Source: Silvibacterium acidisoli (GTDB lineage: Bacteria > Acidobacteriota > Terriglobia > Terriglobales > Acidobacteriaceae). Taken from it: 64,000 nt of DNA. Shown piece by piece: positions 41,122-61,142 of the stretch; within the stretch, counting starts at the first letter, position 1, and each line of letters begins with the position of its first letter. The notes under the pieces are model-generated. The model did no database searches. It was not told the origin of the DNA and saw only the letters and a list, made by a program, of their open reading frames with translations. The translations under genes were made by a program, and so were the position numbers. The stretch lies in NCBI GenBank assembly GCA_022870745.1, contig CP085323.1:4774001-4838000 (forward strand), given 5' to 3'.

Positions 41122-41191
41122 TTTTTCGTTCACATTATGGATGATATCCGCATGCGGGCCATCGAGGAATGGATCACTACGAACCAGCCCT

Positions 41192-41248
41192 TTGCGTATT
41201 TCACTGTTAATGAAATAGGATGGTGGCGCCTGAATGGTACCGGTTCCA
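41192..41248 (+). promoter_or_regulatory. SGNH hydrolase promoter with LacI-type operator
   Basis: A weak -35 TTGCGT (41192-41197) and -10 TAGGAT (41216-41221) are 18 bases apart. Thirteen bases later lies TGGTACCGGTTCCA (41235-41248), which fits the TGGWANCGRTWCCA dyad found at three other promoters of this locus. It would overlap the transcription start region and ends 55 bases before the ATG at 41304. Confidence 0.6.
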
Positions 41249-41303
41249 CACGTCTGTAAGGTCCGGAGACGTGCCCAGCCTTACCAACGGAAAGGGAAAG
41301 ATA

Positions 41304-42620
41304 ATGATGAAGGTTGCAGGGTTGTTTCTGGCTGCGGTTGCGGCTCATTCTGCCTGGGCTGCGCCCGATACATTCACACTCAAAAACGGAGACTCCGTAG
41401 TGTTCTACGGAGACAGCATCACTGACCTGCGTGACTACACCACCATCATCGAGACCTTCGTTGCGACTCGTTATCCGCACCTCGATGCCAGCTTCGTCAA
41501 TTCAGGCTGGGGCGGAGACACCGTAAACGGCGGCGGAGGCGGTCCGATCGATACCCGTATCAAGCGGGATATCTTCCCCTACCGGCCAAACATCGTCACC
41601 ATCATGCTGGGAATGAACGACGGCGGCTATAAGGCCGAGACAGAGAGCAACGACCAGAAGTATTTCAGCGGCTACAAACATATCGTCTCGTCTATCCACC
41701 AGGAGCTCCCGCAGGCGCGAATCTTCGCTATTGAACCATCTCCTTACGACGATGTGACGAGGCCTCCGGCGTTCCCGATCTCGGGAGACATTCAGTACAA
41801 CGAGGTCATGCGCAGCTTCGGCAAGTGGATTGCCGCCAATGCCAGCGAACTGAACGTAGAACCCATCGACGGCAACACGAATTTTGTGAAAGCACTCAAG
41901 AAAGCCAATGAACTCGATCCGCAGACTGCAAAACAGATCCTTTCCGATCACATTCATCCCTCGTTTGGCGGGAGCCTGATTCTCGCGGAAAGCATTCTGA
42001 AGGCCTGGCAGGCTCGGCCTGTCGTCTCCGAAGTGGTTCTTGAAGCCTCGAAAGACAAAGCCAAGCTGAAGTCGAGCCAGTTCGCGACCGTTTCCAATCT
42101 CTCATCAGGCACAGGCCTTTCCTGGACGCAGCTCGACGAATCACTTCCCTTGCCCTTCCAGCAGTGGATCGATATGTGGGGCGGCGGTGCTTCCGTCTCT
42201 CTCGCAATCAAGAGCTCCGATGTCACGACGGCCCTGAATCAGCAGATTCTCAAGGTTCACGGAATGCCGGGTGGCACCTATTCACTCAGGATCGACGGCA
42301 CGTCTGTGGGTGCCTTCAACAACGACCAGCTTGCCGAGGGCATCAACCTCGCTGTGTTGAAAACGCCGGCTACCGAACAAGCGATGAAGGTCTTTCAGCT
42401 GGCGAAGTCACACGAAGAGATCCATAACGACCGGTGGCGGCATATCGATGTCCCGCTTGCCGACTACAACTTCGCGCAGGCAGCACCGGCAAGCACCGCT
42501 CTCGATCAGCTCGACGATGCCATTGCAAAAAAGATGCGCGAGGTCGCGGCGCCGGCCCCTCACAAGTTTGAACTGTTGCCCATCACGGATACCCAGCCCA
42601 GCCCCGCACCTGGCAAGTAG
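41304..42620 (+). CDS. Exported SGNH/GDSL hydrolase
   Basis: 438 residues with a signal peptide (MKVAGLFLAAVAAHSAWA). The catalytic Ser is in VVFYGDSITDLRD (block I), block II Gly is in NSGWGGDT, block III Asn is in MLGMNDGGY, and the Asp-His pair is in SDHIHPSFGG. It probably deacylates a glycan, such as acetylated sugars. About 190 further residues follow the hydrolase core, perhaps a binding domain. Tandem ATGs at 41304 and 41307 follow GGAAAGGGAAAG. It is the first member of the glycan locus and has its own LacI-type site. Confidence 0.9.
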   Translation: MMKVAGLFLAAVAAHSAWAAPDTFTLKNGDSVVFYGDSITDLRDYTTIIETFVATRYPHLDASFVNSGWGGDTVNGGGGGPIDTRIKRDIFPYRPNIVTIMLGMNDGGYKAETESNDQKYFSGYKHIVSSIHQELPQARIFAIEPSPYDDVTRPPAFPISGDIQYNEVMRSFGKWIAANASELNVEPIDGNTNFVKALKKANELDPQTAKQILSDHIHPSFGGSLILAESILKAWQARPVVSEVVLEASKDKAKLKSSQFATVSNLSSGTGLSWTQLDESLPLPFQQWIDMWGGGASVSLAIKSSDVTTALNQQILKVHGMPGGTYSLRIDGTSVGAFNNDQLAEGINLAVLKTPATEQAMKVFQLAKSHEEIHNDRWRHIDVPLADYNFAQAAPASTALDQLDDAIAKKMREVAAPAPHKFELLPITDTQPSPAPGK

Positions 42621-42627
42621 TTAACAG

Positions 42628-42686
42628 AGAGGCATGACCGCGTCCGTTTCGGGCCAGGCTGGCCCGTAGCGGACGCACCTCTTTTT
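42628..42686 (+). terminator. Terminator of the SGNH hydrolase gene
   Basis: A long nested hairpin: AGAGG (42628-42632) with CCTCT (42678-42682), GCGTCCG (42640-42646) with CGGACGC (42670-42676), and inner GGGCC/GGCCC, followed by TTTT. It is a strong factor-independent terminator. Confidence 0.8.
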
Positions 42687-43036
42687 GATCTGGTCGCACT
42701 CGCGAGGCCTCAGCTTTCGCTGGCGCGAGGCTGAAACTGATTCCAGATTTTCCCTTTCTCCCCGAGCCCCGCTGCCAGCCCGCCCTACTCCTTTCTTGCG
42801 CTCAACGACACTGCATCTCCTCCTTAGGTCGCATGCAGACGGGTTTATTACTGATGGTTTTCCCCTGTTTATCCGGCGTTTCATTGGTTCCGTGAGGCCC
42901 GGTGGCTACAAAAAACGAGTACGGGATAAATCTGCTTGACAACTCATTTTGCGAAGCGGTTAGATAGGTTCGCTCTGGAATCGGTACCACAATCCACCGC
43001 TAGTCCGGCATTTTGGGAAGGAACATCAAGAACGCT
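42687..43036. promoter_or_regulatory. Receptor upstream region with promoter and LacI-type operator
   Basis: About 350 bases without a gene. TTGACA (42936-42941) and TTAGAT (42960-42965) form a promoter with an 18-base spacer. The operator TGGAATCGGTACCA (42976-42989) begins ten bases after the -10, over the expected transcription start. The stretch 42690-42930 shows only short low-quality open frames. Confidence 0.65.
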
Positions 43037-46000
43037 ATGTCGATTGATTCTGTTGTAAGGTTTTATCGCTCTGGGGCAAGCCCGCAAAGAGCTTCCGGCC
43101 AATTCGCAAAGACCGCAAGGCTGAAGAGCTGCCTGCTCATTGCCTTCGCGGTAGTATTTCTCTTCGCCGCTCAGGCGCAAGCGCAGCTCGATACCAGCAC
43201 CATCACAGGCGTAGTTACAGACCGCAGTGGTGCAGTCGTGCCGGGAGCAAACGTAACAATTACAGACACAAAGACCAACCGTTCTTTTAACACCGTCACC
43301 AATTCCAAGGGAGAATACTTTGCTCCCTCGCTCAGTGTGAGCGTGTACCAGCTCAAGGTTTCGAAAGAGGGATATCGGGCTACGACACTGGAAGGCATCG
43401 TTCTCCACGCCAACGACAGCATCTCGGAGAACGCGGTGCTCGAAGTAGGCCAAGTCAATGAAACAGTGACCATCCAGGCTGACAAGGTGAAGGTCGACAC
43501 GGAAACGAGCAATCTCGGCGTGACCATCAACGCCAGCCAGGTAAGCCAGCTCCCGCTGAATGGCCGCGATGTCACCAACCTGCTCGCGCTTGTTCCCGGC
43601 GCAGTCCAGAATACGAACAGCGTGAACAACGACTCGCTTGGCGGTTTCCCGAGCGGACAGTTCGGCGCGAACATGCTCCTCGACGGCGGCGACTCGACTC
43701 GCGTCGATGCCAACGTTACATTCACCACCTTTGGACGCGGCAATGCTCGCGTGACCCGCTCCAGCGTCGACAACGTGCAGGAAGTGAAGGTTCTCTCCTC
43801 CGACTACTCGGCTGAGTATGGACGCGCGGTCGGTGAAATCGTCAATCTGATTACCAAGTCCGGCAGCAACACCCTGCACGGCGAGGCCTTCGAGTTCTTC
43901 CGCAACGACGCCATGGACGCCAAGAACTACTTCGACAATGGCGAGGCAGTTCCGCTGCGCCTGAACCAGTTCGGTGGCAACCTGGGCGGCCCCATCCTCA
44001 AAGACAAGCTCTTCTACTTCGGCAACTACGAGGGGGTGCGGCAGCGCGTGACCAATCTCCAGACTGGACAGACGCTCGTACTGAACCAGGCGATGCGCAA
44101 CATGGCTGTTCCCTCCATGCAGCCGATTGTGGCTCTGATCCCCAAGGGCAACGCTGGCCCCGCCGCGCCGCAAGGCAACATCAACTACGGCTACTGGTTC
44201 GATATCCTGAACGGAACCACCTACAGTGATATTAACGAGAACACCTTCGCTCTGAAGCTCGACTACGTCCTGTCGCCGAAGAACAACTTCGCCTTCCGCT
44301 ACAACTACAACCAAAGCAATACCTACGGAACCTACGGCCTGGCGCTTGGGCAGTACTCGTCGGCTCCTGAGCTTGCGCAGCTTGGCAAAGCCACGTGGAA
44401 CTACATCGGCTCTGAAACCTTCCTCAACGAACTCGGTTTCAACATCAACAGCCCTCATTCGCACCAAGGCGCGGGCGAGCCCGGGCTTCCTATCTGGGGC
44501 TGCCTGTCCTGCCAGGTGGGACTCGGACTGACGCCATCCCCTGCAACCTTCGAATCGGCCGAGCCGGCGATTTCTTATGAAGTAACGGACACCGCAACCA
44601 AGATCAAGGGAAGAAACCAGATCCGCTTCGGCGCGGACGTGCGCTGGAACAACGTAGGCCGCGAGCTCTTCCCGCAATACAACATCACCTACAACGGCGG
44701 CCCTTCGGTTGCGGCCGCGTCCACTATTCCCTGCGTCGCGACCGGCACCAACCCGACCTGCCCCAGCGGCGGCCCAGAAGGCTTCCTGGCGAATAACGGT
44801 GAGGGTTACTCTGTCCTTGGCTACCCCATGACGCACATGGAAAATGCCATGACAGCATATTTCATCAACGACGAAGTGAAGCTGTTTCCGAACCTCTCGC
44901 TGAACCTCGGCATTCGCTACGAATACAACACCGTTCTCCACGACTCCAACAGCACGCTGCAGAATTTCGACATTCCGACGCTCTCGCTTGAGAAGCCGGG
45001 AACGCAGCTTTACGCCCCCTCTTATGTCGACTGGGCTCCGCGCTTCGGTTTCAACTGGGATCCGTTCAGCAAGGGCCTGACCACCGTCAAGGGTGGCTTC
45101 GGCCTGTTCTTCCTTCCCATCGCTCCCGGCGGTCCGTTGAACATCGCAGAGAACACGGAGCAGAACGTCTCCATCAACCTGCTGAGCATCAACTCCGGAG
45201 CTCTCACCTGCACACCGGCAATCACTACGGTCACATATCCCCTGCCGACACAAGTGCCGAACTGTACACCCCAGGCACCGGTCAATGTCACGGCATTCGA
45301 TCCAAAGCAACGCGATCAGTATGCGGAGCAGTGGAGCCTTGCGATCGACCAGCAGATTGCAAAGAATACCGTGGTGACCGTTGCCTATCGTGGAAACCGC
45401 GGACTGCGCCTTGGAGGTGGTTACAACACGAACTCGGCTGAAACCCTTCCCGACGGTAAAGCAATCCCTCAACAAGAATGCACAACGAATCCCGACGGAA
45501 CTCAAACATGCGTTCCCTATCCGATTACGTATCGCCTTAGCCCTCTTTGGGGCAGCATCAACTACTCGGGGCAGTTCGCTTCATCTAACTACAACGCTCT
45601 CGTGGTGAGCGGCCGCACAGAGACGCATGGACTGAATCTGCAGGCGAGCTACACCTGGTCGCACGAGTTCGACGACTACATGGGCCTGTTCGAGGCTTAT
45701 CAGAACCCACAAAATCCAAAGGGAGACTGGTCGCAGGGCGACATCGACGTTCGCCATTCGTTCAATGTCGGAGCCGTCTACAACGCGCCTCGCATTCCCG
45801 GATTGCCAAGAAGAGCCGGCGAAGGCTGGCAGATCACATCCATCGTGCAAGCGAGAACCGGCGTTCCCGTGAACTTCGGCTACAGCATGTATGACCCATC
45901 TTCGCCGAGCCTCCGTCCGGATTGCGTCCTGGGAGTTTCGACCCGCGCGGCACACTATTCGTATACCAATCAGTTCAACCCCGCGGCCTTTACCGCACCG

Positions 46001-46273
46001 GCGCTTGCGTACGGCAACTGCCCCCGTAACTACGGACGCGCGCCCGGCTATGTTCAACCTGACTTCGGACTCGTGAAAAACACCAGGATTCTCGGCCGCG
46101 CCACCTGGGAGTTCCGCGCTGAGGCCTTCAACATCTTCAACCATCCGAACTTTGCCGGTCCTGGCGCGACGGTGAATGGATTCAACTTCGGTATCAGCAC
46201 TTCGACCATCGGCAGCCTCGTAGGTCAGGGCACGTCGCGACAATTGCAGATATCGAGCAAGATAGTCTTCTAG
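43037..46273 (+). CDS. TonB-dependent receptor with carboxypeptidase-regulatory domain (Oar-like)
   Basis: 1078 residues, outer-membrane transporter. A long basic N-terminus leads to a signal peptide (LLIAFAVVFLFAAQAQA). A carboxypeptidase regulatory-like beta-sandwich follows (TITGVVTDRSGAVVPGANVT), then a plug domain (QLPLNGRDVTNLLALVPGA, EYGRAVGEIVNLITKSGSN) and a beta-barrel ending in QLQISSKIVF with a terminal aromatic. This architecture is typical of acidobacterial glycan or oligomer importers. The ATG at 43037 is preferred; a TTG at 43013 overlaps the GGAAGG ribosome site. Placed directly before a GH38-like gene under a shared operator type, it probably imports mannose-rich oligosaccharides. 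Confidence 0.93.
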   Translation: MSIDSVVRFYRSGASPQRASGQFAKTARLKSCLLIAFAVVFLFAAQAQAQLDTSTITGVVTDRSGAVVPGANVTITDTKTNRSFNTVTNSKGEYFAPSLSVSVYQLKVSKEGYRATTLEGIVLHANDSISENAVLEVGQVNETVTIQADKVKVDTETSNLGVTINASQVSQLPLNGRDVTNLLALVPGAVQNTNSVNNDSLGGFPSGQFGANMLLDGGDSTRVDANVTFTTFGRGNARVTRSSVDNVQEVKVLSSDYSAEYGRAVGEIVNLITKSGSNTLHGEAFEFFRNDAMDAKNYFDNGEAVPLRLNQFGGNLGGPILKDKLFYFGNYEGVRQRVTNLQTGQTLVLNQAMRNMAVPSMQPIVALIPKGNAGPAAPQGNINYGYWFDILNGTTYSDINENTFALKLDYVLSPKNNFAFRYNYNQSNTYGTYGLALGQYSSAPELAQLGKATWNYIGSETFLNELGFNINSPHSHQGAGEPGLPIWGCLSCQVGLGLTPSPATFESAEPAISYEVTDTATKIKGRNQIRFGADVRWNNVGRELFPQYNITYNGGPSVAAASTIPCVATGTNPTCPSGGPEGFLANNGEGYSVLGYPMTHMENAMTAYFINDEVKLFPNLSLNLGIRYEYNTVLHDSNSTLQNFDIPTLSLEKPGTQLYAPSYVDWAPRFGFNWDPFSKGLTTVKGGFGLFFLPIAPGGPLNIAENTEQNVSINLLSINSGALTCTPAITTVTYPLPTQVPNCTPQAPVNVTAFDPKQRDQYAEQWSLAIDQQIAKNTVVTVAYRGNRGLRLGGGYNTNSAETLPDGKAIPQQECTTNPDGTQTCVPYPITYRLSPLWGSINYSGQFASSNYNALVVSGRTETHGLNLQASYTWSHEFDDYMGLFEAYQNPQNPKGDWSQGDIDVRHSFNVGAVYNAPRIPGLPRRAGEGWQITSIVQARTGVPVNFGYSMYDPSSPSLRPDCVLGVSTRAAHYSYTNQFNPAAFTAPALAYGNCPRNYGRAPGYVQPDFGLVKNTRILGRATWEFRAEAFNIFNHPNFAGPGATVNGFNFGISTSTIGSLVGQGTSRQLQISSKIVF

Positions 46274-46296
46274 ACCTTTTCATGTACTGCCTCCTA

Positions 46297-46337
46297 CCAT
46301 GGCCGCGTTCTGTCCGCATCGTGGAACACGGCCATGG
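46297..46337 (+). terminator. Terminator after the receptor gene
   Basis: CCATGGCCG (46297-46305) pairs with CGGCCATGG (46329-46337), extended inward by GTTC/GAAC with one mismatch, followed by CCTTTGTCT. It separates the receptor transcript from the GH38 operon. Confidence 0.65.
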
Positions 46338-46381
46338 CCTTTGTCTCCGCTCCATGAGACTTCTTCCCTGTGTTCCTTCAA

Positions 46382-46433
46382 TTGACACCACCCATACCCA
46401 ATGCTAAGTTCCAGAATTATGGAATCGGTTCCA
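46382..46433 (+). promoter_or_regulatory. GH38 operon promoter and LacI-type operator over the start codon
   Basis: TTGACA (46382-46387) and TAAGTT (46405-46410) are 17 bases apart. TGGAATCGGTTCCA (46420-46433) starts nine bases after the -10 and covers the second base of the ATG at 46419 onward. It has perfect 5-bp arms (TGGAA/TTCCA). The predicted transcript start is close to 46417, so the message may be nearly leaderless. Confidence 0.6.
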
Positions 46434-49151
46434 CAGCCACGCCGCCGCACTGCCCTGCACGGGTGCCTTATAGCGGCCTGTTCCCTCTTCATGCTTGCGC
46501 CTGTCGCGGTTGCCGCAACCGATAGTTCCGCGCAAATCAAGACCGTATACATCATCCCCAGCTCTCACTGGGACTATGGTTTTGTAGACACGCCTGAAGG
46601 CGTCAGGCGGCGGATCAAGCCACACATCGATGCTGTCATGGCCGCTTGCGACGCCGACCCGCAGTTCCGATGGACCATAGAGAGTGTCTGGCAGCTCCAG
46701 GCATGGCTTGAACAGACGAAAGATCCCGCGCAGATCCAGCATCTTGCCGACCTGATGCATAAAGGACAGATCGAGCTGTCAGCAGCCTACGGCAGCATGC
46801 ATACCGAATTCATGGGCTCGGAAGAACTGAACCGCCTGGTTTCAAGCGGCCAGCAGGTAGAGCAACGCTTCGGAGTGCATCCGACCGTCGCCATGATGAA
46901 CGATGTTCCGGGCTTCTCGATGCGCCTGCCACAGGTCTTCGCACGCTCCGGTATCAAGTACTTCATCACGGGATCGAACATCGCTCTCGGGGGCGGCGCA
47001 GCCCTCTGGCCGGGCAAGGTTCCCTTCTACTGGAAGTCGCCCGATGGCAGCGGCGTACTGGTCTGGCAGACCCAGGGTAAGAACGGTGGATACACCGAAG
47101 GCATGGCGGATTTCTATCTCGCGCCACAGGCTGAAGACCCCTACGAGCACACGAAGTTCTATCCAAAGGAGTGGAAAGGGCTGCCTGACCTTGAAATCAT
47201 GCAGCGCGGCATCGACAAGATGCTCAAGCAGTATGCCGACGCCGGCTACCAGCACCATATCGCGGCGGTCTTTTTCATGCATGACGCGGTCGGGCCCGAT
47301 CTCGAAGCGAAGTACCTTCTGCCGAGCGTACGCGCATGGAATGCCGCCGGCAAGCTTCCTCATCTCGTCGTCGCTACGCCTTCGGAGTTCTTTGCTCATC
47401 TCGAGTCCGACGGCGGCAGCACCAGCCCTGCATACATGGGGGACTGGAGCGGTCTGTGGGCCGAGGTGAAGGTGAATTCGCCAGCCATGAGCGCCGATGC
47501 ACGCTTCCTGCAGGAGCGCATCCCGCAGACCGAGACACTCTGGTCGCTGCTGAAGATGCAGCATATGGTTTCGGAATATCCCGGCAAGACATTCGACACC
47601 GGCTACAACGACCTCTTCCAATATGACGAGCACAACGGCGCAGGTCAGGGCGGCTGGCCAGACGTGCTGACCAAAGAGCAGGTGTTCGAACAGAATCGCG
47701 AATATTCGGAGTGGCTGCGCTCTGGCCGCGAGTCAACCTCGAAGCTGTTTGATGAGGGCCTCGAAGAGCTCGCGCCCGTCCAATCATCCGGCCAGGTCGT
47801 GCTGGCTTATAACCCGCAAAGCTGGACTCGCTCCCAGCTTGTAAAAGTGTCACCTGGCGCTGGCTCCTGGAATGTGCGCGACGCGTCCACAGGAGAACTG
47901 ATTCCCTCTCAGCGGCTGGCATCGGATGAGCTCTACTTCGAAGCCAAGGATGTACCGTCGGAGGGCTACCGCACCTATCGAATCGAATCCGCCACGAGCA
48001 ACAAGGATGCCTCATCTTCAAGCGACGGCGCCGCCCTTGAGAGCCCCTACTTCAAAGTAGAGTTGGATTCCAAGACCGGCAACATTACACGCATTACCGA
48101 TCTGCGTGCCCAGCGTGTGATCGTCGATCACAAAGACGGCGGTGCTGCCGGTGAGCTCATGCTGAATGACTCAGCATACGAAGCACCTGCTGACTCCGCC
48201 GCAGTCCTGCTGCGCCACGATCGCGGACCCGTCGTCGATCGCCTCGTGATCAGCCGGCCTGGCTCCCTGTGGCCTGAAACTACCATCACACTGCCACAGG
48301 CTGAACCGGTGGTGCGCATCGATCAGGTGCTTGACCGCAGCAGGATGCCCTTTGTTGCCGACAAGCAGCGGCGCGCCCTGTATTCCTTCGCCTTCAACTT
48401 CTCGGTTCACGGTAAGGCCGAGCACTGGATCGATAACGGGGCAGGTCTCTATCGCTTTCCCGATGAACTCTTACCTGGAGCGAGAAAAGATGGTGTGGTG
48501 CCGCGCCACACGCTGGTGTGGGACGATAACGGTTCTTACCAGCTGATGCTCACCCAGAAGCAGTCCTTTTACGATCGTCTTCGCACGCACACTGCCTCAT
48601 CGGATCAAAACCTGCAATCGACGGATGGAGTGCTGATCGACGCGATGATCAAGCACGATGAGGCCAAAACCAAGGACACCGGAGTTACGAGCTTCGAAAC
48701 CTACGAGCCCGGCTACCCAAAGGACTATACGTTTTCCTTTGCGTTAACCGGTCAGGCCGGCCCGGTTGACCCTGTATCCGCACATCGCTTTACGGTCCCG
48801 GAGGATTCCGACGCCATTGAATTGTCACCAGGCCGCGGCGCCTCTCACCCGACAGCATCGCTTCTTTCGCTCAGCGCGGCGAACGTCGTTGTCGAGGCGC
48901 TCAGACCCAGTTCCGATGGCAATGCGAACGACTACCTGCTGCGGCTGCGGGAACTGAGTGGTAAGGCGACAGATCTCAGTCTCACTCTTCCGGTAAAGCT
49001 TGCTGCCATCGCAGAAACGAACCTTACCGAGGACAGCGTAATCCGAACGGGCCTGCGAGCCAACGCTATCCACATCTCACCTCACCAGACACTCACTTTG
49101 CGGTTATCGGTGGCGCACTCCGCTGGCGCCACATCAGGAGAAATCAAGTGA
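46419..49151 (+). CDS. Exported GH38-like glycoside hydrolase (alpha-mannosidase family)
   Basis: 910 residues with a signal peptide (GCLIAACSLFMLAPVAVA). The N-terminal metal site reads IIPSSHWDYGFVDTPEG, the counterpart of HSHxDxGW in GH38. The nucleophile region is MMNDVPGFSMRLPQVF, and IELSAAYGSMHTEFMGSEEL and VFFMHDAVGPDLEAKYLL add further ligands. It is closer to the DUF5054-type GH38 relatives than to lysosomal enzymes. The beta-sandwich C-terminal half fits the family. It should cleave alpha-mannosides. The promoter position argues for the ATG at 46419 over the one at 46401; neither has a ribosome site. It overlaps the next gene (GTGA). Confidence 0.85.
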   Translation: MESVPQPRRRTALHGCLIAACSLFMLAPVAVAATDSSAQIKTVYIIPSSHWDYGFVDTPEGVRRRIKPHIDAVMAACDADPQFRWTIESVWQLQAWLEQTKDPAQIQHLADLMHKGQIELSAAYGSMHTEFMGSEELNRLVSSGQQVEQRFGVHPTVAMMNDVPGFSMRLPQVFARSGIKYFITGSNIALGGGAALWPGKVPFYWKSPDGSGVLVWQTQGKNGGYTEGMADFYLAPQAEDPYEHTKFYPKEWKGLPDLEIMQRGIDKMLKQYADAGYQHHIAAVFFMHDAVGPDLEAKYLLPSVRAWNAAGKLPHLVVATPSEFFAHLESDGGSTSPAYMGDWSGLWAEVKVNSPAMSADARFLQERIPQTETLWSLLKMQHMVSEYPGKTFDTGYNDLFQYDEHNGAGQGGWPDVLTKEQVFEQNREYSEWLRSGRESTSKLFDEGLEELAPVQSSGQVVLAYNPQSWTRSQLVKVSPGAGSWNVRDASTGELIPSQRLASDELYFEAKDVPSEGYRTYRIESATSNKDASSSSDGAALESPYFKVELDSKTGNITRITDLRAQRVIVDHKDGGAAGELMLNDSAYEAPADSAAVLLRHDRGPVVDRLVISRPGSLWPETTITLPQAEPVVRIDQVLDRSRMPFVADKQRRALYSFAFNFSVHGKAEHWIDNGAGLYRFPDELLPGARKDGVVPRHTLVWDDNGSYQLMLTQKQSFYDRLRTHTASSDQNLQSTDGVLIDAMIKHDEAKTKDTGVTSFETYEPGYPKDYTFSFALTGQAGPVDPVSAHRFTVPEDSDAIELSPGRGASHPTASLLSLSAANVVVEALRPSSDGNANDYLLRLRELSGKATDLSLTLPVKLAAIAETNLTEDSVIRTGLRANAIHISPHQTLTLRLSVAHSAGATSGEIK

Positions 49152-50098
49152 ACGTAAGCAAGTCTGTTTCGAAGGCCTGCAAGGCAGCTCTCTTGGGAGT
49201 CTTTGTTTTATGCAGCGGCACAATCGCTTCGGCACAACAGAATGACTGGGCCGAATCAGCTTCTTTCGGATACGGCATCGGCGCCAACATCACCTACGGC
49301 ACCTTCGGGAACGTCCCTGTTCACCTGGATGTATGGCGGAATATGAAAGCTACGGGTCCAGTGCCCACGCTGATGTATATCCACGGCGGAGGCTGGGTCT
49401 TCGGCGACAAAGGCGGCGCAGACAATCTCTTTCTTCCCTACATCGAGCGCGGCTGGAATGTCGTGAATGTTGAATACAGGATGGCCGGCGACGCTCCCGC
49501 TCCCGGCGCCGTCGAAGATGTTCGCTGCGCCCTGCGGTGGATTTACAGAAACGCCGGGGAGTACCACTTCGATACCACCCGCATCGTCGCTACGGGTCAT
49601 TCCGCGGGCGGACATCTCGCCCTGATGGTAGGCATGCTGCCTTCCGGCGGCGACCTCGACAGCGCGTGCCCTGCAGATGCGGGAGATCCACCTCTGAAGG
49701 TGGCGGCTATCGTGAACTGGTTTGGCATCACCGATGTGAACGAAATTCTCAGCGGACCTGACCGCAAAACCTATGCCGTTGCCTGGATCGGCGCACAGCC
49801 CGACAAGGAAGCGCGCGCGAAGCGGGTTTCTCCGATTACGTATGTACGTTCAGACCTGCCGCCTATCATCACGGTTCACGGCGACCACGACCCGGTTGTT
49901 CCCTACTCCCAGGCGGTTCACCTGCGCGATGCACTGAGCCAGGCTGGAGTGCCGAATGAGCTGGTCACTGTTCCGGGAGGCAGTCACGGTGGCTTTTCAG
50001 ATGATCAGTTGCACATGGCGTTTGCGCAGGTCTGGAAGTTTCTCGACGCGCATCATCTGCCAGTGACGATCCCATCGGCTTCCACAGAGGCACGCTGA
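49148..50098 (+). CDS. Exported alpha/beta-hydrolase (esterase)
   Basis: 316 residues with a signal peptide (ALLGVFVLCSGTIASAQ). The oxyanion motif is YIHGGGWVFGD, the nucleophile is in ATGHSAGGHLALM, and the Asp and His are in VHGDHDPVVPYSQAV and PGGSHGGFSDD. It resembles carbohydrate-linked carboxylesterases (BD-FAE/acetyl esterase type). The start is GTG at 49148, overlapping the GH38 stop by four bases, and the next gene overlaps by one base, so the three are one translationally coupled unit. It likely removes acyl groups from the glycan. Confidence 0.88.
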   Translation: MNVSKSVSKACKAALLGVFVLCSGTIASAQQNDWAESASFGYGIGANITYGTFGNVPVHLDVWRNMKATGPVPTLMYIHGGGWVFGDKGGADNLFLPYIERGWNVVNVEYRMAGDAPAPGAVEDVRCALRWIYRNAGEYHFDTTRIVATGHSAGGHLALMVGMLPSGGDLDSACPADAGDPPLKVAAIVNWFGITDVNEILSGPDRKTYAVAWIGAQPDKEARAKRVSPITYVRSDLPPIITVHGDHDPVVPYSQAVHLRDALSQAGVPNELVTVPGGSHGGFSDDQLHMAFAQVWKFLDAHHLPVTIPSASTEAR

Positions 50099-51099
50099 TG
50101 GACGAACATCCAATTCCCCAGGAACTGGAAGGGCCCCTGCAGGAAGAGATTGCGAAAGCTGACGAAGCTTACTCGAGACTGTCGTCGTTCGATCGCAACT
50201 TTCTCGAACAACTTCACCGGCTTCCTCCTCTCGGGCTGCTGTCCGTAGAGGAGGAGCGTGTTCGCATGCGTGCTGGACAAACTACGAAAACCGGCGAATA
50301 TCCTGTCGACGTGGAAACATTTCAAACATCGGCCTGCCCTGTCCACCTGGTTCGGCCGATCGAAGCCCCATCGTTGTCACCCGTCCTCTTTTTTCTGCAC
50401 GGCGGCGGATGGGTGCTTGGGGATTTTGACACACACGCCAAGCTTATCTGCGAACTTGCTGTGAGTATCGGGTGCGCGGTCGCATTCATCGACTACCCGC
50501 GTGCTCCCGAGCACCCTTTCCCTGCGCCGCTCGAGGCCTCGATCGTCGCGCTCTACGAGGTTCTGGAAGCATCCGCATCCTTAAGGCTCGACAGAGAGAA
50601 ATTCGCAGTCGGAGGAGACAGTTCGGGGGGCAATCTGTCAGCCGCACTCATTCTGTCAGCAGCTGCGCGAGACCTGCCTCTACCGCTCCGGCAGGTTCTT
50701 CTCTACCCGGTGATGGATCATAAAGTCGATTCGGCATCGTACCGGCAGTTCAGGGACAATCCCAACCTCAGCCAAGCCACGATGGAATGGTTCTGGAGCA
50801 ACTATCTTCCGCAGGGCTCTGTCGGGGCCGATCCACTCGTTTCGCCACCGAACGCCTCCGCTGAAATGCTTGCGCAATTCCCTCCCACCCTGCTCGTAAC
50901 CTGTGAGTACGACGTTCTGAGGGATGAGGGAGAGCAGTTTGCCGCCCGCCTTGTCCACGCTGGTGTTGAAGTGACGGCAGTGCGCTGGCTGGGAGCGCTT
51001 CACGGCTTCCTCGTAACCGAGTCGCTCTCGGCTTCATCATCCGCGCAGGCGTGTATCGACACCATCGCGCAGTATATCCGCCGCGGGTTCGAAAGCTAG
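50098..51099 (+). CDS. HSL-family alpha/beta-hydrolase (esterase)
   Basis: 333 residues, no signal peptide, so cytosolic. FFLHGGGWVLGDFDTHAKLI is the HGGG oxyanion motif of the hormone-sensitive-lipase family, the nucleophile is in VGGDSSGGNLSAALILS, and the Asp and His are in CEYDVLRDEG and GALHGFLV. It may deacetylate sugars after import, complementing the exported esterase encoded just before it. The ATG overlaps the previous stop (TGATG). Confidence 0.9.
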   Translation: MDEHPIPQELEGPLQEEIAKADEAYSRLSSFDRNFLEQLHRLPPLGLLSVEEERVRMRAGQTTKTGEYPVDVETFQTSACPVHLVRPIEAPSLSPVLFFLHGGGWVLGDFDTHAKLICELAVSIGCAVAFIDYPRAPEHPFPAPLEASIVALYEVLEASASLRLDREKFAVGGDSSGGNLSAALILSAAARDLPLPLRQVLLYPVMDHKVDSASYRQFRDNPNLSQATMEWFWSNYLPQGSVGADPLVSPPNASAEMLAQFPPTLLVTCEYDVLRDEGEQFAARLVHAGVEVTAVRWLGALHGFLVTESLSASSSAQACIDTIAQYIRRGFES

Positions 51100-51121
51100 C
51101 GAACCCTGCGCAGGCCGGGGA

Positions 51122-52138
51122 TCAGGCAGTCGTGCAACCGCACGATTGCCTGATCACGAGGTTCGAGGCTACCTCGATATGCTGCGGTGAGTTGTTCTCT
51201 CCTGCCATGTGGCTGAGCAGGAGCTGCGTCGCTGTTTGTGCAAGCTCCTCGATCGCCTGCCTGACCACGGTGATCGAAGGACGAAGCGTGGCAGCCAGTG
51301 CGAAGTCGTCGAACCCTATCAGGCTTACGCGCTCAGGAACCCGGATACCGTGGTTCTGCATGACCTCATAAGCAAGAATTGTCGACTGGTTGTAGAGGCC
51401 GAAGATCGCGTCGATCTTGCCCTTCGCCGACATGTGCTTCATGATCGCCGCTTCGGCGGACGGATAATCTGCGGCTTCCATCTCGGCCAGCACGTCGAGG
51501 CCGGCCGCCTTCAAAGCCGTGGTAGCACCTTTCATTCGTTCCCTGATGGTATGAAGGTTCGGATCACCGCCCAGGCAAAGGATCCGCTTGCGGCCATGGT
51601 GGATGAGATGACGCACGGCGTGCTGGGCAGCGGTGTTGTTATCCGAGACAACGCTCGAGAACTCCCTGCTCGCAATGGGGCGATCGAAGGCCACGATAGG
51701 TACGGAAAGGCGGCGCAGATTCTGCAGCAACGCCTTGGAACTGGAACGTGGAGGAACCAGAAGAAGCCCATCTACGCGGTGACGTTCCAGGATCTGCAGA
51801 TCCTCGAGCTCCAGCTGCGCCTTGTCCTGGGAGGTGAGCAGAAGCAGGACATAATCCTTGCGTCGCGCATGCACTTCCGCCACGGATGCGAACCGGGCAA
51901 AGAAAGGATCGGTAATCGATGGAACAATCAGACCGATGGTACGGGAACGGTCACTCTTCAGCGAACGGGCGGCGACATTCGGCTGGTATCCGAGCTCTTT
52001 CATGACGCGCTGAATCCGCGCCAGCATCTCCGGGCCAACATAATGGCCACCGTTGATTACACGAGAGACGGTGGTGGTGCCGACTCCGGCTGCTCTTGCA
52101 ACATCATGGAGAGTAGGGCGACTCCTACGGATGTTCAT
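51122..52138 (-). CDS. LacI-family transcriptional repressor
   Basis: 338 residues. The HTH is TLHDVARAAGVGTTTVSRVI, the hinge helix is GYQPNVAARSLKSDRSRT with the Leu that inserts at a central CG step, and the periplasmic-binding-like effector domain runs to the end (SLIGFDDFALAATLRPSITV). It probably binds a sugar. The ATG at 52138 begins MNIRRSRPTLHD; the upstream open frame is not coding-like. It is convergent with the esterase operon and is the natural candidate to bind the four TGGWANCGRTWCCA sites in this locus. Confidence 0.93.
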   Translation of the reverse strand: MNIRRSRPTLHDVARAAGVGTTTVSRVINGGHYVGPEMLARIQRVMKELGYQPNVAARSLKSDRSRTIGLIVPSITDPFFARFASVAEVHARRKDYVLLLLTSQDKAQLELEDLQILERHRVDGLLLVPPRSSSKALLQNLRRLSVPIVAFDRPIASREFSSVVSDNNTAAQHAVRHLIHHGRKRILCLGGDPNLHTIRERMKGATTALKAAGLDVLAEMEAADYPSAEAAIMKHMSAKGKIDAIFGLYNQSTILAYEVMQNHGIRVPERVSLIGFDDFALAATLRPSITVVRQAIEELAQTATQLLLSHMAGENNSPQHIEVASNLVIRQSCGCTTA

Positions 52139-52404
52139 CAGGTAGTTTGACGTCCTTCTTACGCGTTCTAACAATGGCCCGCGCACAACAGCGGCCAACC
52201 GACATTATGACATCAACCTGCACGGAAGATAAGTCAGTTACAACGACATAGCTGCCGCCCGTGAAAGCCGATTCGGCATTCAGATCGTCACAATCTGAAG
52301 CTTTTCGCGGGCCTCGTAGCCCGCGATCTCAAGTTGGCTTTTGGCAATCCCGATGCGCAGGCTTCCGGCAACTTCATCGACTTCGATCCGGCCGGATAGG
52401 GATG
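52139..52404. other. Intergenic region with two hairpins
   Basis: 266 bases upstream of the LacI gene and downstream of the XRE/cupin gene. TTCAGAT/ATCTGAA (52279-52285 with 52293-52299, 7-base loop) and CGCGGGC/GCCCGCG (52306-52312 with 52319-52325, 6-base loop) lie seven bases apart. Neither has a U-tract, but together they may end the XRE/cupin transcript. I see no copy of the 14-bp LacI dyad here. Confidence 0.4.
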
Positions 52405-53058
52405 CTACAGGCCTTTGGCTTCCCTTCGAGGCAGGACGCGCCTGCCGCCGGCCTGGGGACAGGTCAAAATCATGACCTTCACGCTCTCCCCGGCCTTGCA
52501 CCTGTACTCCCGCTCAGCGCCTCCCTGTGCCCATAGAACATCTCCGGGAGCGAGAATCTCTTCTCTCGATGCTGAAATGAATACAACCGAGCCCTCCATG
52601 ACGTATGCGAACTCTTCGCCGTCAAAGATCTCCGGGAAAAAGGAAGAGTCCGCATCGCTCACTGGAAACTCCGCAATGCACGGCACCAGGCTCCGGTCCG
52701 GAATCAGCGCGCTCATGCTCTCCGAGATCATGGACCCCGACCGATTATTGATCGTGAGCCGCGATCTGACCTTCCCTCTCGAAATCCTGAAGCAGTTCCG
52801 GTTAGCGGTCTCGAAGAAGTAATCCAGGTTTCGCTCGAAGACCAACGCGATGCGGGAGAGGTTCCTTAGAGTCGGAACGACGCGCCCTGTCTCAAGCTGA
52901 GAAAGAAAGCTCGCCGAAAGGCCGGTTCTCCGCCCTAAATCGACCAGCCCCATGGAGCGTTTAAGGCGAAGTCGACGAATCTTACCGCCAATTCCTGCCG
53001 CCACAATGGCATTCTCGACCTGTTCTTCCCAGGCCTCCCTGGCCTCTGCGTCGAACAT
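52405..53058 (-). CDS. XRE-family HTH regulator with cupin domain
   Basis: About 217 residues. An N-terminal helix is followed by a Cro/XRE HTH (IRRLRLKRSMGLVDLGRRTG, LSASFLSQLETGRVVPTLRN) and a C-terminal cupin (GEEFAYVMEGSVVFISASRE, LAPGDVLWAQGGAEREYRC). Such proteins commonly sense a small metabolite. The start is uncertain: the ATG at 53058 has GGTGG ten bases upstream, and the frame stays open to 53199. It is encoded in tandem with the LacI gene and may control part of the glycan locus, for example the GH92 and amidohydrolase genes that lack a LacI site. Confidence 0.85.
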   Translation of the reverse strand: MFDAEAREAWEEQVENAIVAAGIGGKIRRLRLKRSMGLVDLGRRTGLSASFLSQLETGRVVPTLRNLSRIALVFERNLDYFFETANRNCFRISRGKVRSRLTINNRSGSMISESMSALIPDRSLVPCIAEFPVSDADSSFFPEIFDGEEFAYVMEGSVVFISASREEILAPGDVLWAQGGAEREYRCKAGESVKVMILTCPQAGGRRVLPRREAKGL

Positions 53059-53134
53059 CTTTTTGCGTCCACCTTTCCCGTCGGCTTTAGGCCGAGTCGA
53101 ACCACAGGATATTGATTCGTCGATTACGATGACT

Positions 53135-53154
53135 CTACCTAGTGTACCGGGTAG
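53135..53154. promoter_or_regulatory. Imperfect dyad upstream of the XRE/cupin gene
   Basis: CTACC (53135-53139) and GGTAG (53150-53154) are inverted repeats around a 10-base centre with an inner GT/AC pair. It lies about 75 bases before the preferred start and could be an autoregulatory site. This is a weak inference. Confidence 0.3.
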
Positions 53155-53233
53155 TCGACGGCAGCCGGAATAGGTGAAACCATCCAGCGCAGCCGGCAAT
53201 GTCGAGAAGACAACCCTCGGGCTTTCAATAAAT

Positions 53234-55468: not shown

Positions 55469-55746
55469 CAGGAGAAATTGTATCGTCGCCGCTGCCCCAA
55501 CGCCACGCTCCTGGGCTCCTGCTCACCGCGTTCGGGTCATGCGCGTCACCAGCTCGTCCCGGAAATAGGCACCGACTCCGCCGGCAGATGAATTGCCAGA
55601 TAAGCGGTGTCAGGCGAAGCGACCCCGTCCCCATCTACCTCTCGCTTATGTTTCTCTTTGGATTTCCCCTCCTTCCTGTTACTGTCTTTCTCTATCGAAA
55701 ATGGCCTCGAAGCATTTCATGTAGCGGCCGAAATGGGGGAGGCATC
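55469..55746. other. Divergent intergenic region between GH92 and amidohydrolase
   Basis: 278 bases. I find no clear promoter pair and no good copy of the LacI dyad; GATAAGCGGTGTCA (55599-55612) is only a poor match. A pyrimidine-rich stretch lies at about 55650-55695. Confidence 0.35.
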
Positions 55747-56952: not shown

Positions 56953-56965
56953 AGGAGAGGATTCG

Positions 56966-58549
56966 ATGCGGCGCAGGGATTTCCTGAAAAGCGGTGCGAT
57001 GCTTGCCGGGGGTCTGAATCTGGCGGTGGGCAAAGCTGAGGGCATGGTTCGTGCCCACAATTGGAACGATTACAACTTCGGCTCTGGGCCAGAGGTACAC
57101 GACCGGCTGAATCAGGGGCCGTTCCCGCAGTACGAGCCGGACGCCGCGATTCCATCAGACGAAGTCGTAATGGCGACAACGCCGTCGGACGATCCGGTGC
57201 CGCACTATGGCAAAGGCCTGGTTACATATATTACGGCCGACATGGGGACGGAGGAGATCAAGTCCGGCAACATACCCCAGGCGATTGAAGACCTGGTGAA
57301 GTTTTCACTCGGAGATGTTTTGTATATCCGGCCTACATGGCGAGAGGTGCAGCCCAAGCCCGGGCCGCTCCAGCTGCCGGATTATGTGAAGCAGGTCTTC
57401 GAGCTGAGCAGGAAATACAACAAGCGCGTGGGCCTGCGCGTACAAATGAGTGCTCCGGACCATACACACAGTGCTGCTCTGCCGGATTTCGTGCTGGAAC
57501 GCGTGCCGAAGGTGGATCTTGTTCTGAATAACGCGAGCGGAGAAGACCGAAAGGCAGGACAGCGATTCATCGATAACCCTCACAGCAAGTATCAGCCGCG
57601 CTTTGACGATCCCTTCTTTCAGAGCGCCTTTGCTGACCTGGTGGGAAGCATGGCTGCTGAATTCAACGGCAGTCCTCATGTCGAGTTCATCGATACGTTC
57701 ATGTATGGCTTCTGGGGCGAAGGCCACACATGGCCCTTTAGCAACAATCCCTTTCCCGATTACCAGACCGCGGAACGCACATGGACGAAGATGCTCGAGG
57801 TTCAGCTTGAGCACTTTACGAAGACTCCACTCCTGACGAACACGCAGCCGGACTTCAGCCGGGTGGGCAACTCCGAGTTGCTGGACCGCACGGTGCGCAG
57901 CAATAACTGGATTCGCAGCGACACTATCTTCATCGAGAACGAGCAGATCGAGGCATTGAGTAACCGCCCTCCGTGGATCGGCGCTTTGCTCGAGCAGGGC
58001 TTGCCGGGAAAGCCTCCTGACACGCAGCCCAGCGACGACGGTGTTTCACCGGCAGAGAATATGATCGCGCACGTAATGGATATCGGCGCGAATTACTGGT
58101 CGCTCTGGAACTTTCACAACATCAGCGCGCAGAATTTGCAACGCTACTACGCTGCGTATCCGGAATGGTTCAACCGTATTCACCGCCGTATCGGATTTCG
58201 AGTGCGGCCTTCGTTCATCTGGAGCTATGAGACAGGCAGCTACACAGGACTGATCGTGGGCTTTGCAAACGACGGCATTGCGGGAGTGCCGGGCGTGCTT
58301 CGCGTGACGGTGGAGAGCGAAGATGGCAGACAACTGGTGAGCGGATGCCTGGATGCAGGTTATCCGCTACCGGGAAAGATACGGCAGGCACAGTTTGTGC
58401 TGCCTGCCGGGGTGAAATGGCAAGGAACAAAACTCCGTGCAGAGATCGAGGTCAAAGGCATGCGCTATCCCGTGCCGTGGGCCTGTCGCCAGAAGCTGAA
58501 TGAAGACGGCTCGCTGACGCTGAGGGGAAATCTGCGGCACGGGGTATAG
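56966..58549 (+). CDS. TAT-exported TIM-barrel-like protein of unknown function
   Basis: 527 residues. It starts MRRRDFLKSGAMLAGGLNLA, a TAT signal. The central part reads like a glycosidase barrel: LVTYITADMGTEE, VLYIRPTWREVQPKPGPLQL, YNKRVGLRVQMSAPDH, VEFIDTFMYGFWGEGHTWPF (conserved-looking acidic residues) and TPLLTNTQPDFSR. The C-terminal 120 residues look like a beta-sandwich (GLIVGFANDGIAGVPGVLRV). The layout recalls DUF4832 or GH42-like proteins, but I do not recognise a definite family. AAGGAGAGG precedes the ATG. It is paired with the amidohydrolase and ends at a strong terminator. Confidence 0.8.
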   Translation: MRRRDFLKSGAMLAGGLNLAVGKAEGMVRAHNWNDYNFGSGPEVHDRLNQGPFPQYEPDAAIPSDEVVMATTPSDDPVPHYGKGLVTYITADMGTEEIKSGNIPQAIEDLVKFSLGDVLYIRPTWREVQPKPGPLQLPDYVKQVFELSRKYNKRVGLRVQMSAPDHTHSAALPDFVLERVPKVDLVLNNASGEDRKAGQRFIDNPHSKYQPRFDDPFFQSAFADLVGSMAAEFNGSPHVEFIDTFMYGFWGEGHTWPFSNNPFPDYQTAERTWTKMLEVQLEHFTKTPLLTNTQPDFSRVGNSELLDRTVRSNNWIRSDTIFIENEQIEALSNRPPWIGALLEQGLPGKPPDTQPSDDGVSPAENMIAHVMDIGANYWSLWNFHNISAQNLQRYYAAYPEWFNRIHRRIGFRVRPSFIWSYETGSYTGLIVGFANDGIAGVPGVLRVTVESEDGRQLVSGCLDAGYPLPGKIRQAQFVLPAGVKWQGTKLRAEIEVKGMRYPVPWACRQKLNEDGSLTLRGNLRHGV

Positions 58550-58581
58550 TCAGCCTTTGCCTCGAAGGCTGACGGTTTTTA
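58549..58581. terminator. Convergent terminator between the TAT-protein and GH92 genes
   Basis: GTCAGCCTT (58549-58557) and AAGGCTGAC (58565-58573) form a 9-bp stem with a 7-base loop, followed by GGTTTTTA. The hairpin begins at the last base of the upstream stop codon and its U-tract abuts the stop of the convergent GH92 gene. Confidence 0.85.
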
Positions 58582-60891
58582 GGGCTTCTCCTCACTTAAG
58601 GATGGCGGAGCGTCCTGCGGCTGCGCTCCCCATGACTTGTTTGGCTCTGCTCCGAGCGTGAACCTGATCGCGCCACCGTCGGTCATATCCTGGAAGCGGA
58701 TCCAGTTCTTTGCGTGTGCCTTTCCATTCAGCTCGACGCTCTGAATGTACGGCAGGTGTTCAGGATCAGGAGAGGACTCGATGGTGAAGGTCCTGCCCTT
58801 GTATGGCGCATTCAGATGAATAACGACCTTTGGGAAGACCGGGCTGGTCAGCTCGTAGGCGAGACTGGTGGGATCGACCGAGTAGAAGCCCATCATGCTC
58901 ATCACTGCCCACGATGACATCGCGCCGCAATCGTCATTACCGGGAATGCCATCCGGAGTGTCAGGATAGTTCTCCTTCAGCACGCGGCGTACAACCCTCT
59001 GCGTCTCCCACGGCTTGCCGGAGAAATTGAACTCGAAAGGCGCCTGCAGGTCGGTTTCGTTGTAGGGGTTGTAGTATTGCCCGAACCAGCTTGGATATTC
59101 GTAATCGAAGAAGTTCGTCAGGCGCTTATTGAAGAGATCCTGCCCCATCGACTTCACCACCCAGGCCATGTCTGTGGGCTCGAACCATTGATAATGCCAG
59201 CCGGAACCCTCGATGAAGCCATGCCACTCTTCCGCTGGGTCGAAGATCGGCACCCACGAGCCGTCAGCGTTCCTCGGCCGGAAGAAGCGTGTCTCCGGAT
59301 CGAAGACATTGCGGTAATACAGCGAGCGATCGTACATGGTCTTCGCTTCCGCCGTCTTGCCGAGCGCTTTGCCCAGCCGGTAAAGCGAGGCATAGGCAAT
59401 CACGTCTTCCTGGATCTGCGAAACCGATCCGTACTCGACTTTATCGTTCGGCGCATAATGCAGCTTGTTAATCCAGTCGATGCCGATCTGCCCCTGGTAA
59501 GGCTTGCCAGCCGGCGCGGGCTCGGTCGCGTCACGGTACATGCCCTCCCAGGCCGTCTTCATATCGAAGTCATGGAGTCCGTCGAGCCACGCGGTGCTCA
59601 CGATCACCGTCAACGGGCTTCCCGCCATGATGTTCGTGTACCGGTTGATCTGCGGCCAACGATCGATCCAACCACCTTGCTTGTACATCAGGGCGACGGA
59701 GTCAGCCATGTCCTCCATGCGCTTCGGGTCGATCATTGCTACGAGCGGCATCTGGTCCCGGTAGATGTCCCAGCCGGAGAAGTTTCCGTAGAGCTCGTGT
59801 CCTGGCTTCACATTGTGAATCGCATCGTCGAAGCCGATGTACCGGCCGTCCACGTCGCTCAGGATGCTCGGCATCAGAAGGCTGTGATAGAGCCCTGTAT
59901 AGAAGACGCGCTGCTGCGTCTCAGACCCTCCCGTGGCTTCGATCACACTCAGGGCCTTGTTCCACGAGGCTACCGCACTGCTATGAATCTGGTCGAAGCT
60001 CTTGCCCTCGGCCTCGGACTTGAGGTTGTTCCGCGCACCCTCCAGGTCGACATAGGAGATTCCGATCTGCGCGGTGACAGTCTGAGCCTGCGCTGCCGAT
60101 GGCCAGCTTGCATACGCGCCTACCCACTGCTCATGGTTCGTCTGCTTTACTGCTTTCACTTCCGGATTCGGCGAAGCCGCGCCGCCCTTCAGCGTTCCGT
60201 TCCACGTGCCCGACTCCGCGAAAGAATGGTCGAAGCGGATGACAAAGTAAACCTTGTACGTGCCTTTCGCGTCGCAGAAGACCTGATTTTCGACATAGCC
60301 TTCCATCTCGCGGTCGCCTGTCATGTGAATCTCTGCGCTGCTTGTGTTGTTCAGCGTATGGCTGATCGGCACTACGATGTTCGCTGTCTTCCCGGCAGGA
60401 AACGTAAAGCGCAGCATGCCGGTGCGCTCGGTCGCGGTCAGCTCGGCATTCACATCCCAGCGCTTCAGGCGAACCTGGTAATAGCCCGGTGAAGCCGACT
60501 CCTGGTCGTGCGAGTACGGCGATTCGAGGCCAGCCTTGTCTGTAACCACCGCTCCGGTCGTCGCCGTTACGGAGACCTCACCTTCGTTGGCGCAGCCCAC
60601 ACCGCTCATGTGGGTCATGCTGAATCCTTTCAGGGAGTCCTGATAGTAGTGATATCCGAGGCCCTTGTCTTCGGTATCGGGACTTAGCTGCACCATTCCA
60701 AACGGTACAACTGCCCCCGGAAACAGGTTTTCGCTGTCGCCAGGACCCTTACCGGTTCCGATAAACGGATTGACCTTCCCGGCAGGTCCGCCATTGGCTT
60801 CACCGGCAGCAGCAGCAACAGGCAGAACAGACGTCACCGCAAACAACATCAATAGCGGCGCGCAAAAACCCTTCGCCGGTCTCTTAAACAT
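58579..60891 (-). CDS. GH92 family glycosidase, divergent type
   Basis: 770 residues with a signal peptide (LLMLFAVTSVLPVAAAA). VNPFIGTGKGPGDSENLFPG at the start and GIPGNDDCGAMSSWAVMSMM plus GFYSVDPTSLAYELTSP mark GH92. The segment equal to NEPSHH in the other copy reads NETDLQAPFEFNFSGKPWET, so the mannose-binding subsite differs and linkage preference is likely different. The ATG at 60891 has GAGGAAGAG upstream; a GTG five codons earlier (60906) is the alternative. A LacI-type operator lies 52 bases before the start. Confidence 0.92.
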   Translation of the reverse strand: MFKRPAKGFCAPLLMLFAVTSVLPVAAAAGEANGGPAGKVNPFIGTGKGPGDSENLFPGAVVPFGMVQLSPDTEDKGLGYHYYQDSLKGFSMTHMSGVGCANEGEVSVTATTGAVVTDKAGLESPYSHDQESASPGYYQVRLKRWDVNAELTATERTGMLRFTFPAGKTANIVVPISHTLNNTSSAEIHMTGDREMEGYVENQVFCDAKGTYKVYFVIRFDHSFAESGTWNGTLKGGAASPNPEVKAVKQTNHEQWVGAYASWPSAAQAQTVTAQIGISYVDLEGARNNLKSEAEGKSFDQIHSSAVASWNKALSVIEATGGSETQQRVFYTGLYHSLLMPSILSDVDGRYIGFDDAIHNVKPGHELYGNFSGWDIYRDQMPLVAMIDPKRMEDMADSVALMYKQGGWIDRWPQINRYTNIMAGSPLTVIVSTAWLDGLHDFDMKTAWEGMYRDATEPAPAGKPYQGQIGIDWINKLHYAPNDKVEYGSVSQIQEDVIAYASLYRLGKALGKTAEAKTMYDRSLYYRNVFDPETRFFRPRNADGSWVPIFDPAEEWHGFIEGSGWHYQWFEPTDMAWVVKSMGQDLFNKRLTNFFDYEYPSWFGQYYNPYNETDLQAPFEFNFSGKPWETQRVVRRVLKENYPDTPDGIPGNDDCGAMSSWAVMSMMGFYSVDPTSLAYELTSPVFPKVVIHLNAPYKGRTFTIESSPDPEHLPYIQSVELNGKAHAKNWIRFQDMTDGGAIRFTLGAEPNKSWGAQPQDAPPSLSEEKP

Positions 60892-60942
60892 GCTTCTCTT
60901 CCTCACTCGTCAGGATCCGCCCGGAGACTTCAAAGCGGCATG

Positions 60943-60956
60943 TGGAAACGATACCA
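60943..60956 (-). promoter_or_regulatory. LacI-type operator upstream of the second GH92 gene
   Basis: TGGAAACGATACCA on the plus strand, reading TGGTATCGTTTCCA toward the gene. It fits TGGWANCGRTWCCA and, like the other three copies, the general LacI/GalR pattern with a central CG. No clear -35/-10 pair is visible beside it. Confidence 0.6.
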
Positions 60957-61142
60957 TGTGAATCTCAGCGGAGCTTTTTGCTGACGCCATGAAGTTCTTG
61001 CAAGCCTCATAATGGATGGCACGCGTTCGGGCGGTTGTTTTCTATCTGATGCTTGCGACTTTCAAATCTACCGGCTGCAAATAATTCATGGCCCACGCGA
61101 ACAAATGCGCAGGCCATGGTTACGTAAAATCTCTGACTGCCT

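Follow-up and report, generated by a model that had tools for sequence, protein, structure and literature searches.

Four LacI-type operators in Silvibacterium acidisoli very probably belong to a conserved, dispersed and mannoside-related regulon

A dyad of 14 bases occurs four times in a stretch of 64,000 nucleotides from the chromosome of Silvibacterium acidisoli (contig CP085323.1, positions 4,774,001 to 4,838,000; called the window here, with coordinates counted from its first letter). This raises the question of whether the copies are operators, which protein would bind them and which genes would be controlled. A sequence-only reading of the window had proposed four such dyads as LacI-type operators of one locus, and all four were found as exact palindromes without a mismatch, at 41235, 42976, 46420 and 60943. 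Judged from sequence comparison, they are in all likelihood operators of one LacI-family repressor, the predicted product of the gene at 51122-52138, with a dispersed alpha-mannoside regulon. This LacI regulon is conserved and very probably mannoside-related. The operators, their target genes and the regulator gene are arranged as follows.

41235..41248: operator 1, TGGTACCGGTTCCA, 55 nt before the likely GDSL/SGNH start codon ATG 41304
41304..42620, plus strand: GDSL/SGNH hydrolase (PF13472) carrying a signal peptide; this peptide and a purine-rich stretch upstream guided the choice of start by eye
42976..42989: operator 2, TGGAATCGGTACCA, 47 nt before ATG 43037; TTGACA starts 40 nt upstream
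43037..46273, plus strand: Oar-like/TonB-type outer-membrane receptor (PF13620, PF25183)
46420..46433: operator 3, TGGAATCGGTTCCA, overlapping the GH38 start codon (ATG 46419, MESVP); TTGACA starts 38 nt upstream
46419..49151, plus strand: GH38 alpha-mannosidase-like enzyme, first of a three-gene run (PF01074; alternative in-frame start ATG 46401)
49148..50098, plus strand: BD-FAE type esterase (PF20434)
50098..51099, plus strand: alpha/beta hydrolase (PF07859)
51122..52138, minus strand: LacI-family regulator, the proposed repressor, with recognition stretch VGTTTVSR
58579..60891, minus strand: second GH92 gene (PF07971, PF17678; likely start ATG 60891 by eye)
60943..60956: operator 4, TGGAAACGATACCA, 51 nt before ATG 60891 on the minus strand

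The sites had been described as preceding the SGNH hydrolase, the receptor, the GH38 operon and the second GH92 gene. This holds for three of them, where the gap between operator and start codon is 47-55 nt (starts chosen by eye), whereas the site at 46420 overlaps the GH38 start codon.

The motif is better described by the symmetrical pattern TGGWANCGNTWCCA than by the pattern given earlier, because the central R of the latter shuts out symmetric sites such as TGGAAACGTTTCCA. TGGWANCGNTWCCA is an even palindrome with a central CG, as found in LacI operators, and the motif extends towards 16 bp, with a purine 5′ of the dyad in 55 of 71 sites and a pyrimidine 3′ of it in 51 of 71. Given the base composition of the window, 0.013 matches are expected in the 64 kb and four were observed. 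The Poisson chance of at least four is about 1e-9, in agreement with the earlier estimate that a chance occurrence is unlikely. In the whole genome, a single contig of 5.36 Mb, the pattern has nine exact places where 1.06 are expected from base composition. The reversed pattern, used as a control, was found at three places, and at that rate the probability of at least nine is 0.004.

Seven of the nine exact matches lie at the 5′ end of a GDSL, Oar (two), GH38, GH92 (two) or GxGYxYP gene. The other two fall within reading frames of unrelated proteins and appear to be chance matches. Three of the seven promoter-type sites stand outside the window, far off in the same chromosome: a second Oar/TonB-type receptor gene has one at its 5′ end (L002), and a third GH92 gene (L004) and a GxGYxYP gene (L005) are each preceded by one. 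The regulon is therefore scattered, and the description of a compact, self-contained regulon has to be given up, also because the first GH92 gene of the window and the LacI gene carry no site. One-mismatch sites were rejected as a general enlargement of the regulon, as they show no excess genome-wide (59 places compared to 81 for the control, i.e. 68 and 84 minus the exact 9 and 3). Nor did the extended 16-mer bring a gain when at most one mismatch was allowed (23 compared to 21). A one-mismatch site at 711929 faces a serine-carboxypeptidase-like gene and was left out of the counts; another, at 58691, sits within GH92 coding sequence and is probably due to chance.

As the sequence-only reading had stated, a LacI-family gene lies among the sites. 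The 51122-52138 protein combines an N-terminal LacI helix-turn-helix with a periplasmic-binding-protein-like core, and its matches to PF00356 (62.4 bits), PF13377 (111.4) and PF00532 (111.9) are all above cut-off. Orthologs were searched in 150 genomes of the family (E <= 1e-80). Thirty orthologs form one clade with a support of 100/100, and the recognition helix reads VGTTTVSR in 24 of the 30. Exact sites were likewise counted in 150 genomes, taken as the same draw: the 46 genomes listed in the ortholog search all recur in the site count, and the other 104 are not listed there. Genomes with an ortholog (26) carry a mean of 5.04 exact sites and those without (124) a mean of 1.22, with a Mann-Whitney p of 8.6e-11, or 2.6e-10 when the own genome is left out; genomes of one family are related and not independent samples, so these p values are only a guide. 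The reversed control showed no such difference (2.65 with and 2.70 without ortholog, p 0.86). An exact site within 600 bp of the ortholog gene was observed at 13 of 27 loci, downstream at eight, upstream at seven and on both sides at two, and the reversed pattern was found in the examined flanks of none of the 27.

The sites are also kept in relatives at orthologous genes. In two loci from uncultured relatives (L125 and L126, with LacI proteins 81-82% identical) the operator is present at the GH38 start. L125 carries it at the receptor gene as well; in L126 the contig stops 41 bases beyond the receptor frame, and a receptor site cannot be judged there. In both, an operator also precedes the LacI gene towards its divergent neighbour, whose domains are those of a beta-mannosidase-like GH2 protein in L125 and of a rhamnosidase in L126. 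Orthologs of the GxGYxYP gene have a site in G001 (71%) and G027 (67%), and in G103 a site stands at a short GxGYxYP frame of 222 residues (67% over 190). The GH92 ortholog of G001 (53%) and the ortholog of the second receptor in G025 (53%) have one too. The downstream site at the LacI gene faces a ROK kinase gene in G025, G149 and G101, and genes for MFS sugar porters also stand behind operators in relatives.

Recurrent targets are Oar/TonB-type receptors, GH38, GH92, GH76, GxGYxYP and ROK kinase genes. In six relatives that carry the regulator (G001, G023, G025, G027, G101 and G149), 30 of 43 exact sites face a gene for Oar, GH38, GH92, GH76, GxGYxYP or ROK, compared to none of 26 in ortholog-free genomes (Fisher p 1e-9), a tally that is partly circular because the reference proteins come in part from the same loci, the control set being classified against the same references. 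The control set comprises 26 of the 27 places found with the earlier, narrower pattern in ortholog-free genomes. Three receptor genes with doublet operators count twice in the tally, and the G101 loci cover 13 of its 16 sites. The tally was 33 of 43 before the removal of three doubtful rows; these are L082 and L084, assigned to GH76 by BLAST and not by Pfam, and L079, with only a CBM (carbohydrate-binding module)-like domain. Sites conserved before orthologous genes in several regulator-bearing genomes and rarer without the regulator are the pattern predicted for a conserved regulon, and this pattern was observed. A scan of the genome and its relatives had been named earlier as the check on the proposal. 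It supports the proposal in that sites are kept at orthologous genes and seven of nine own sites are of promoter type, but not in the two that lie inside unrelated coding sequence.

Some sites occur as doublets with starts 21-22 bp apart, namely L073:3836-3870 (G025), L134:4000-4035 (G149), L142:4054-4089 (G101) and G171:C10:1234-1269, the first three before an Oar-like receptor gene. This arrangement suggests that binding may be cooperative. In two genera (L002:4978-4991 and L076:4242-4255), the longest open frame of the second receptor gene includes the operator. In L002 an ATG with a Shine-Dalgarno-like stretch, as judged by eye, precedes it, so that the real start codon is further downstream or the operator falls within the gene.

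The position of the sites relative to promoters was assessed for 92 oriented site-gene rows with 150 nt of upstream sequence. Of 43 TTGACN hits, 31 begin 31-50 nt before the operator, compared to two of six in 56 rows of the other orientation and one of seven in 48 rows from ortholog-free genomes. In the window, a clear TTGACA is present at two of the four sites (42976 and 46420). Assuming a spacer of 17 nt, the dyad would span roughly +3 to +18, as a classical repressor site does. A repressor dimer bound to the dyad of 14-16 bp (RTGGWANCGNTWCCAY) just downstream of the -10 element would block RNA polymerase. Mannose or a small manno-oligosaccharide, set free by basal enzyme activity, would bind the core domain and release the repressor. 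Binding, repression rather than activation, and the effector are inferred, the last two from the LacI family membership of the protein and from genes for ROK kinases and MFS sugar porters that follow operators in relatives. In S. acidisoli, the predicted regulon comprises two Oar/TonB-type receptors, GH38 with two esterases, two GH92 enzymes, the GDSL hydrolase and the GxGYxYP putative glycoside hydrolase. The wider regulon, with GH38, GH92, GH76, beta-mannosidase-like GH2, ROK kinase and sugar porter, fits alpha-mannan or mannosides generally at least as well as N-glycan fragments.

Other explanations of the sites were weighed against this one. As real LacI-type operators, they could still be bound by another LacI paralogue of the genome or be common to several. 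Twelve LacI-domain matches were found in the genome, 11 above the cut-off, and the 51122-52138 gene itself has no exact site beside it in its own genome. However, none of 20 paralogue loci, 11 own and nine from relatives, holds an exact site in the examined flanks, in contrast to the 13 of 27 ortholog loci, and site numbers track the presence of the ortholog clade. Own paralogue loci were also scanned for other dyads with a central CG, and nothing like the TGGWANCGNTWCCA motif was found. We regard a paralogue as quite unlikely. Co-occurrence, gene adjacency, the lack of a site at the 20 paralogue loci and conservation at orthologous genes strongly link the sites to the 51122-52138 protein as their likely regulator.

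The same protein could instead be a broader carbohydrate regulator, acting in the manner of catabolite control and not as a mannoside-specific repressor. The dyad is similar to CcpA-type boxes. Sites face Gfo/Idh/MocA oxidoreductases in two genomes, one of which (L137) has an isocitrate/isopropylmalate dehydrogenase gene on the other side at a distance of 201 nt, and one site in L126 (JOPF067) faces the gene with the rhamnosidase domain. Such a regulator is unlikely, as sites per genome are few (0 to 16) and receptors and alpha-mannosidases dominate the targets examined. Chance palindromes or copies of a repeated mobile element, to which the two intragenic matches and the three places of the reversed pattern might point, are extremely improbable and already contradicted by the counts in the window and by conservation at orthologous genes. 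The free positions differ among the sites and the flanks are unlike by eye, which argues against copies of one element.

Several observations weigh against a mannoside repressor encoded at 51122-52138. In Acidipila sp. EB88 (L127), whose LacI protein is 67% identical, one-mismatch sites alone were observed, one of them before the GDSL gene, and three genomes with the regulator have few exact sites or none (G006 none, G027 and G147 one each). Of the 43 sites in the six relatives, six face other genes (one of them ruvB), two face Gfo/Idh/MocA oxidoreductases, two face no frame of at least 200 residues and three are the doubtful rows. In S. acidisoli, eight of ten GH92 genes have no site with up to two mismatches in the 1500 nt that precede the catalytic domain, and two have one. 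Autoregulation in the own genome was rejected: no exact operator lies within 1.5 kb of the LacI gene and no site with up to three mismatches in 52139-52450 upstream of it, while an exact site within 600 bp upstream is present at seven of 27 ortholog loci. The promoters are a further point. Three sites had been credited with an identical -35/-10 geometry; this was confirmed for the two with a clear TTGACA, but no TTGAC occurs within 45 nt of the operators at 41235 and 60943. A strict sigma-70 scan of 41000-47000 gave a single promoter-like site, which coincides with no operator, and none was reported for 60800-61200.

In the genome without exact sites, G006, the recognition residues of the ortholog read VGVGTVSR, and the intergenic region between LacI and receptor genes (L090:10537-10550 and 10666-10679) holds TGGAAACGTTCCCA and TGGGAACGTTCCCA. 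This is a single-case hint of a possible shift in operator specificity. Among 14 genomes, the TGGGA-type pattern was found in G006 (the two intergenic sites and one other), in G023 (five) and in G036, which has no ortholog at the cut-off (four). Covariation of protein and operator beyond G006 was not upheld, since G023 and G036 carry such sites too.

The operator at GH38 differs from the others in its position. The dyad opens with the TG of ATG 46419 and encodes MESVP, and the same is observed in L125 and L126. In all three species TTGACA is followed by 17 nt and TANNTT, and then by 9 nt (own) or 10 nt (L125, L126) to the TGG of the dyad. In L126 the operator ATG is the only in-frame ATG, GTG or TTG after the upstream stop; one other upstream in-frame ATG is present in the own gene (46401) and two in L125. 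Because the operator contains the start codon in three species, a leaderless GH38 mRNA is suggested as the simplest reading. We therefore put forward, tentatively and as somewhat less than an even chance, that operator, transcription start and initiation codon coincide at GH38. In that case a leaderless alpha-mannosidase mRNA would take its ATG and codons 2-5 (MESVP) from the dyad (A-TGG-AAT-CGG-TWC-CA), an element under constraint from both repressor binding and coding. The regulon would in addition link the GxGYxYP family, still without a substrate, to the breakdown of alpha-mannosides outside Bacteroidota. An overlap with the start codon as a general rule was rejected. A long in-frame open frame runs from an operator ATG or GTG in ten of the 92 oriented rows, which by our own estimate is not above a guessed chance level, and the overlap is argued for GH38 alone.

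Genes between the regulator gene and the second GH92 gene include the following.

52405-53199: regulator gene of helix-turn-helix (HTH)-cupin type, on the same strand as the first GH92 gene and immediately downstream of it
53234-55468: first GH92 gene of the window
56966-58549: protein of 527 residues with an N-terminal RRR stretch, encoded between the two GH92 genes

The first GH92 gene has no site with up to three mismatches in about 300 nt upstream, and the HTH-cupin regulator may control this gene, which lacks a LacI operator. The 527-residue protein has no Pfam or NCBIfam match at E 0.001.

Compared with the LacI carbohydrate regulons of RegPrecise, as far as the accessible text of the survey describes them, the regulon shares the even palindrome with central CG, the sites upstream of sugar genes, a local to mid-sized extent and a regulator with LacI DNA-binding and sugar-binding domains (PMC4052901). 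In that set 72% of regulators are autoregulated and less than 1% of sites lie in coding regions (PMC4052901). Here, by contrast, autoregulation is missing in the own genome, which again counts against our assignment, and one operator contains a start codon. Table 1 of the survey has five orthologous ManR groups of the LacI family for mannose and mannosides (PMC4052901). Mannoside control is predicted here as well, a likeness by role, and the receptors differ in being Oar-like. Seven phyla are named in the accessible text of the survey, with Acidobacteria not among them (PMC4052901). Our literature searches returned no title on such a regulon in Acidobacteria among the matches listed.

In a 2014 paper, as far as its accessible text goes, an alpha-mannan polysaccharide utilization locus of Bacteroides holds GH92 and GxGYxYP proteins, and Caldithrix has GH38, GH92, MFS and ROK genes near GxGYxYP genes (PMC4071793). 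A personal communication is quoted there to the effect that no catalytic activity could be found for GxGYxYP proteins (PMC4071793). The combination of GH92 and GxGYxYP enzymes is shared with the Bacteroides locus, whereas the genes described here are scattered and joined by a LacI-type operator. The regulon seems to be a new case of a well-known type of gene regulation. Its promoters could serve as inducible tools in these bacteria, and it would lend regulatory support to a mannoside role of GxGYxYP proteins. With an operator and regulator found across the family, one could predict which Oar-like receptors and glycosidases, out of the many present, act on mannosides.

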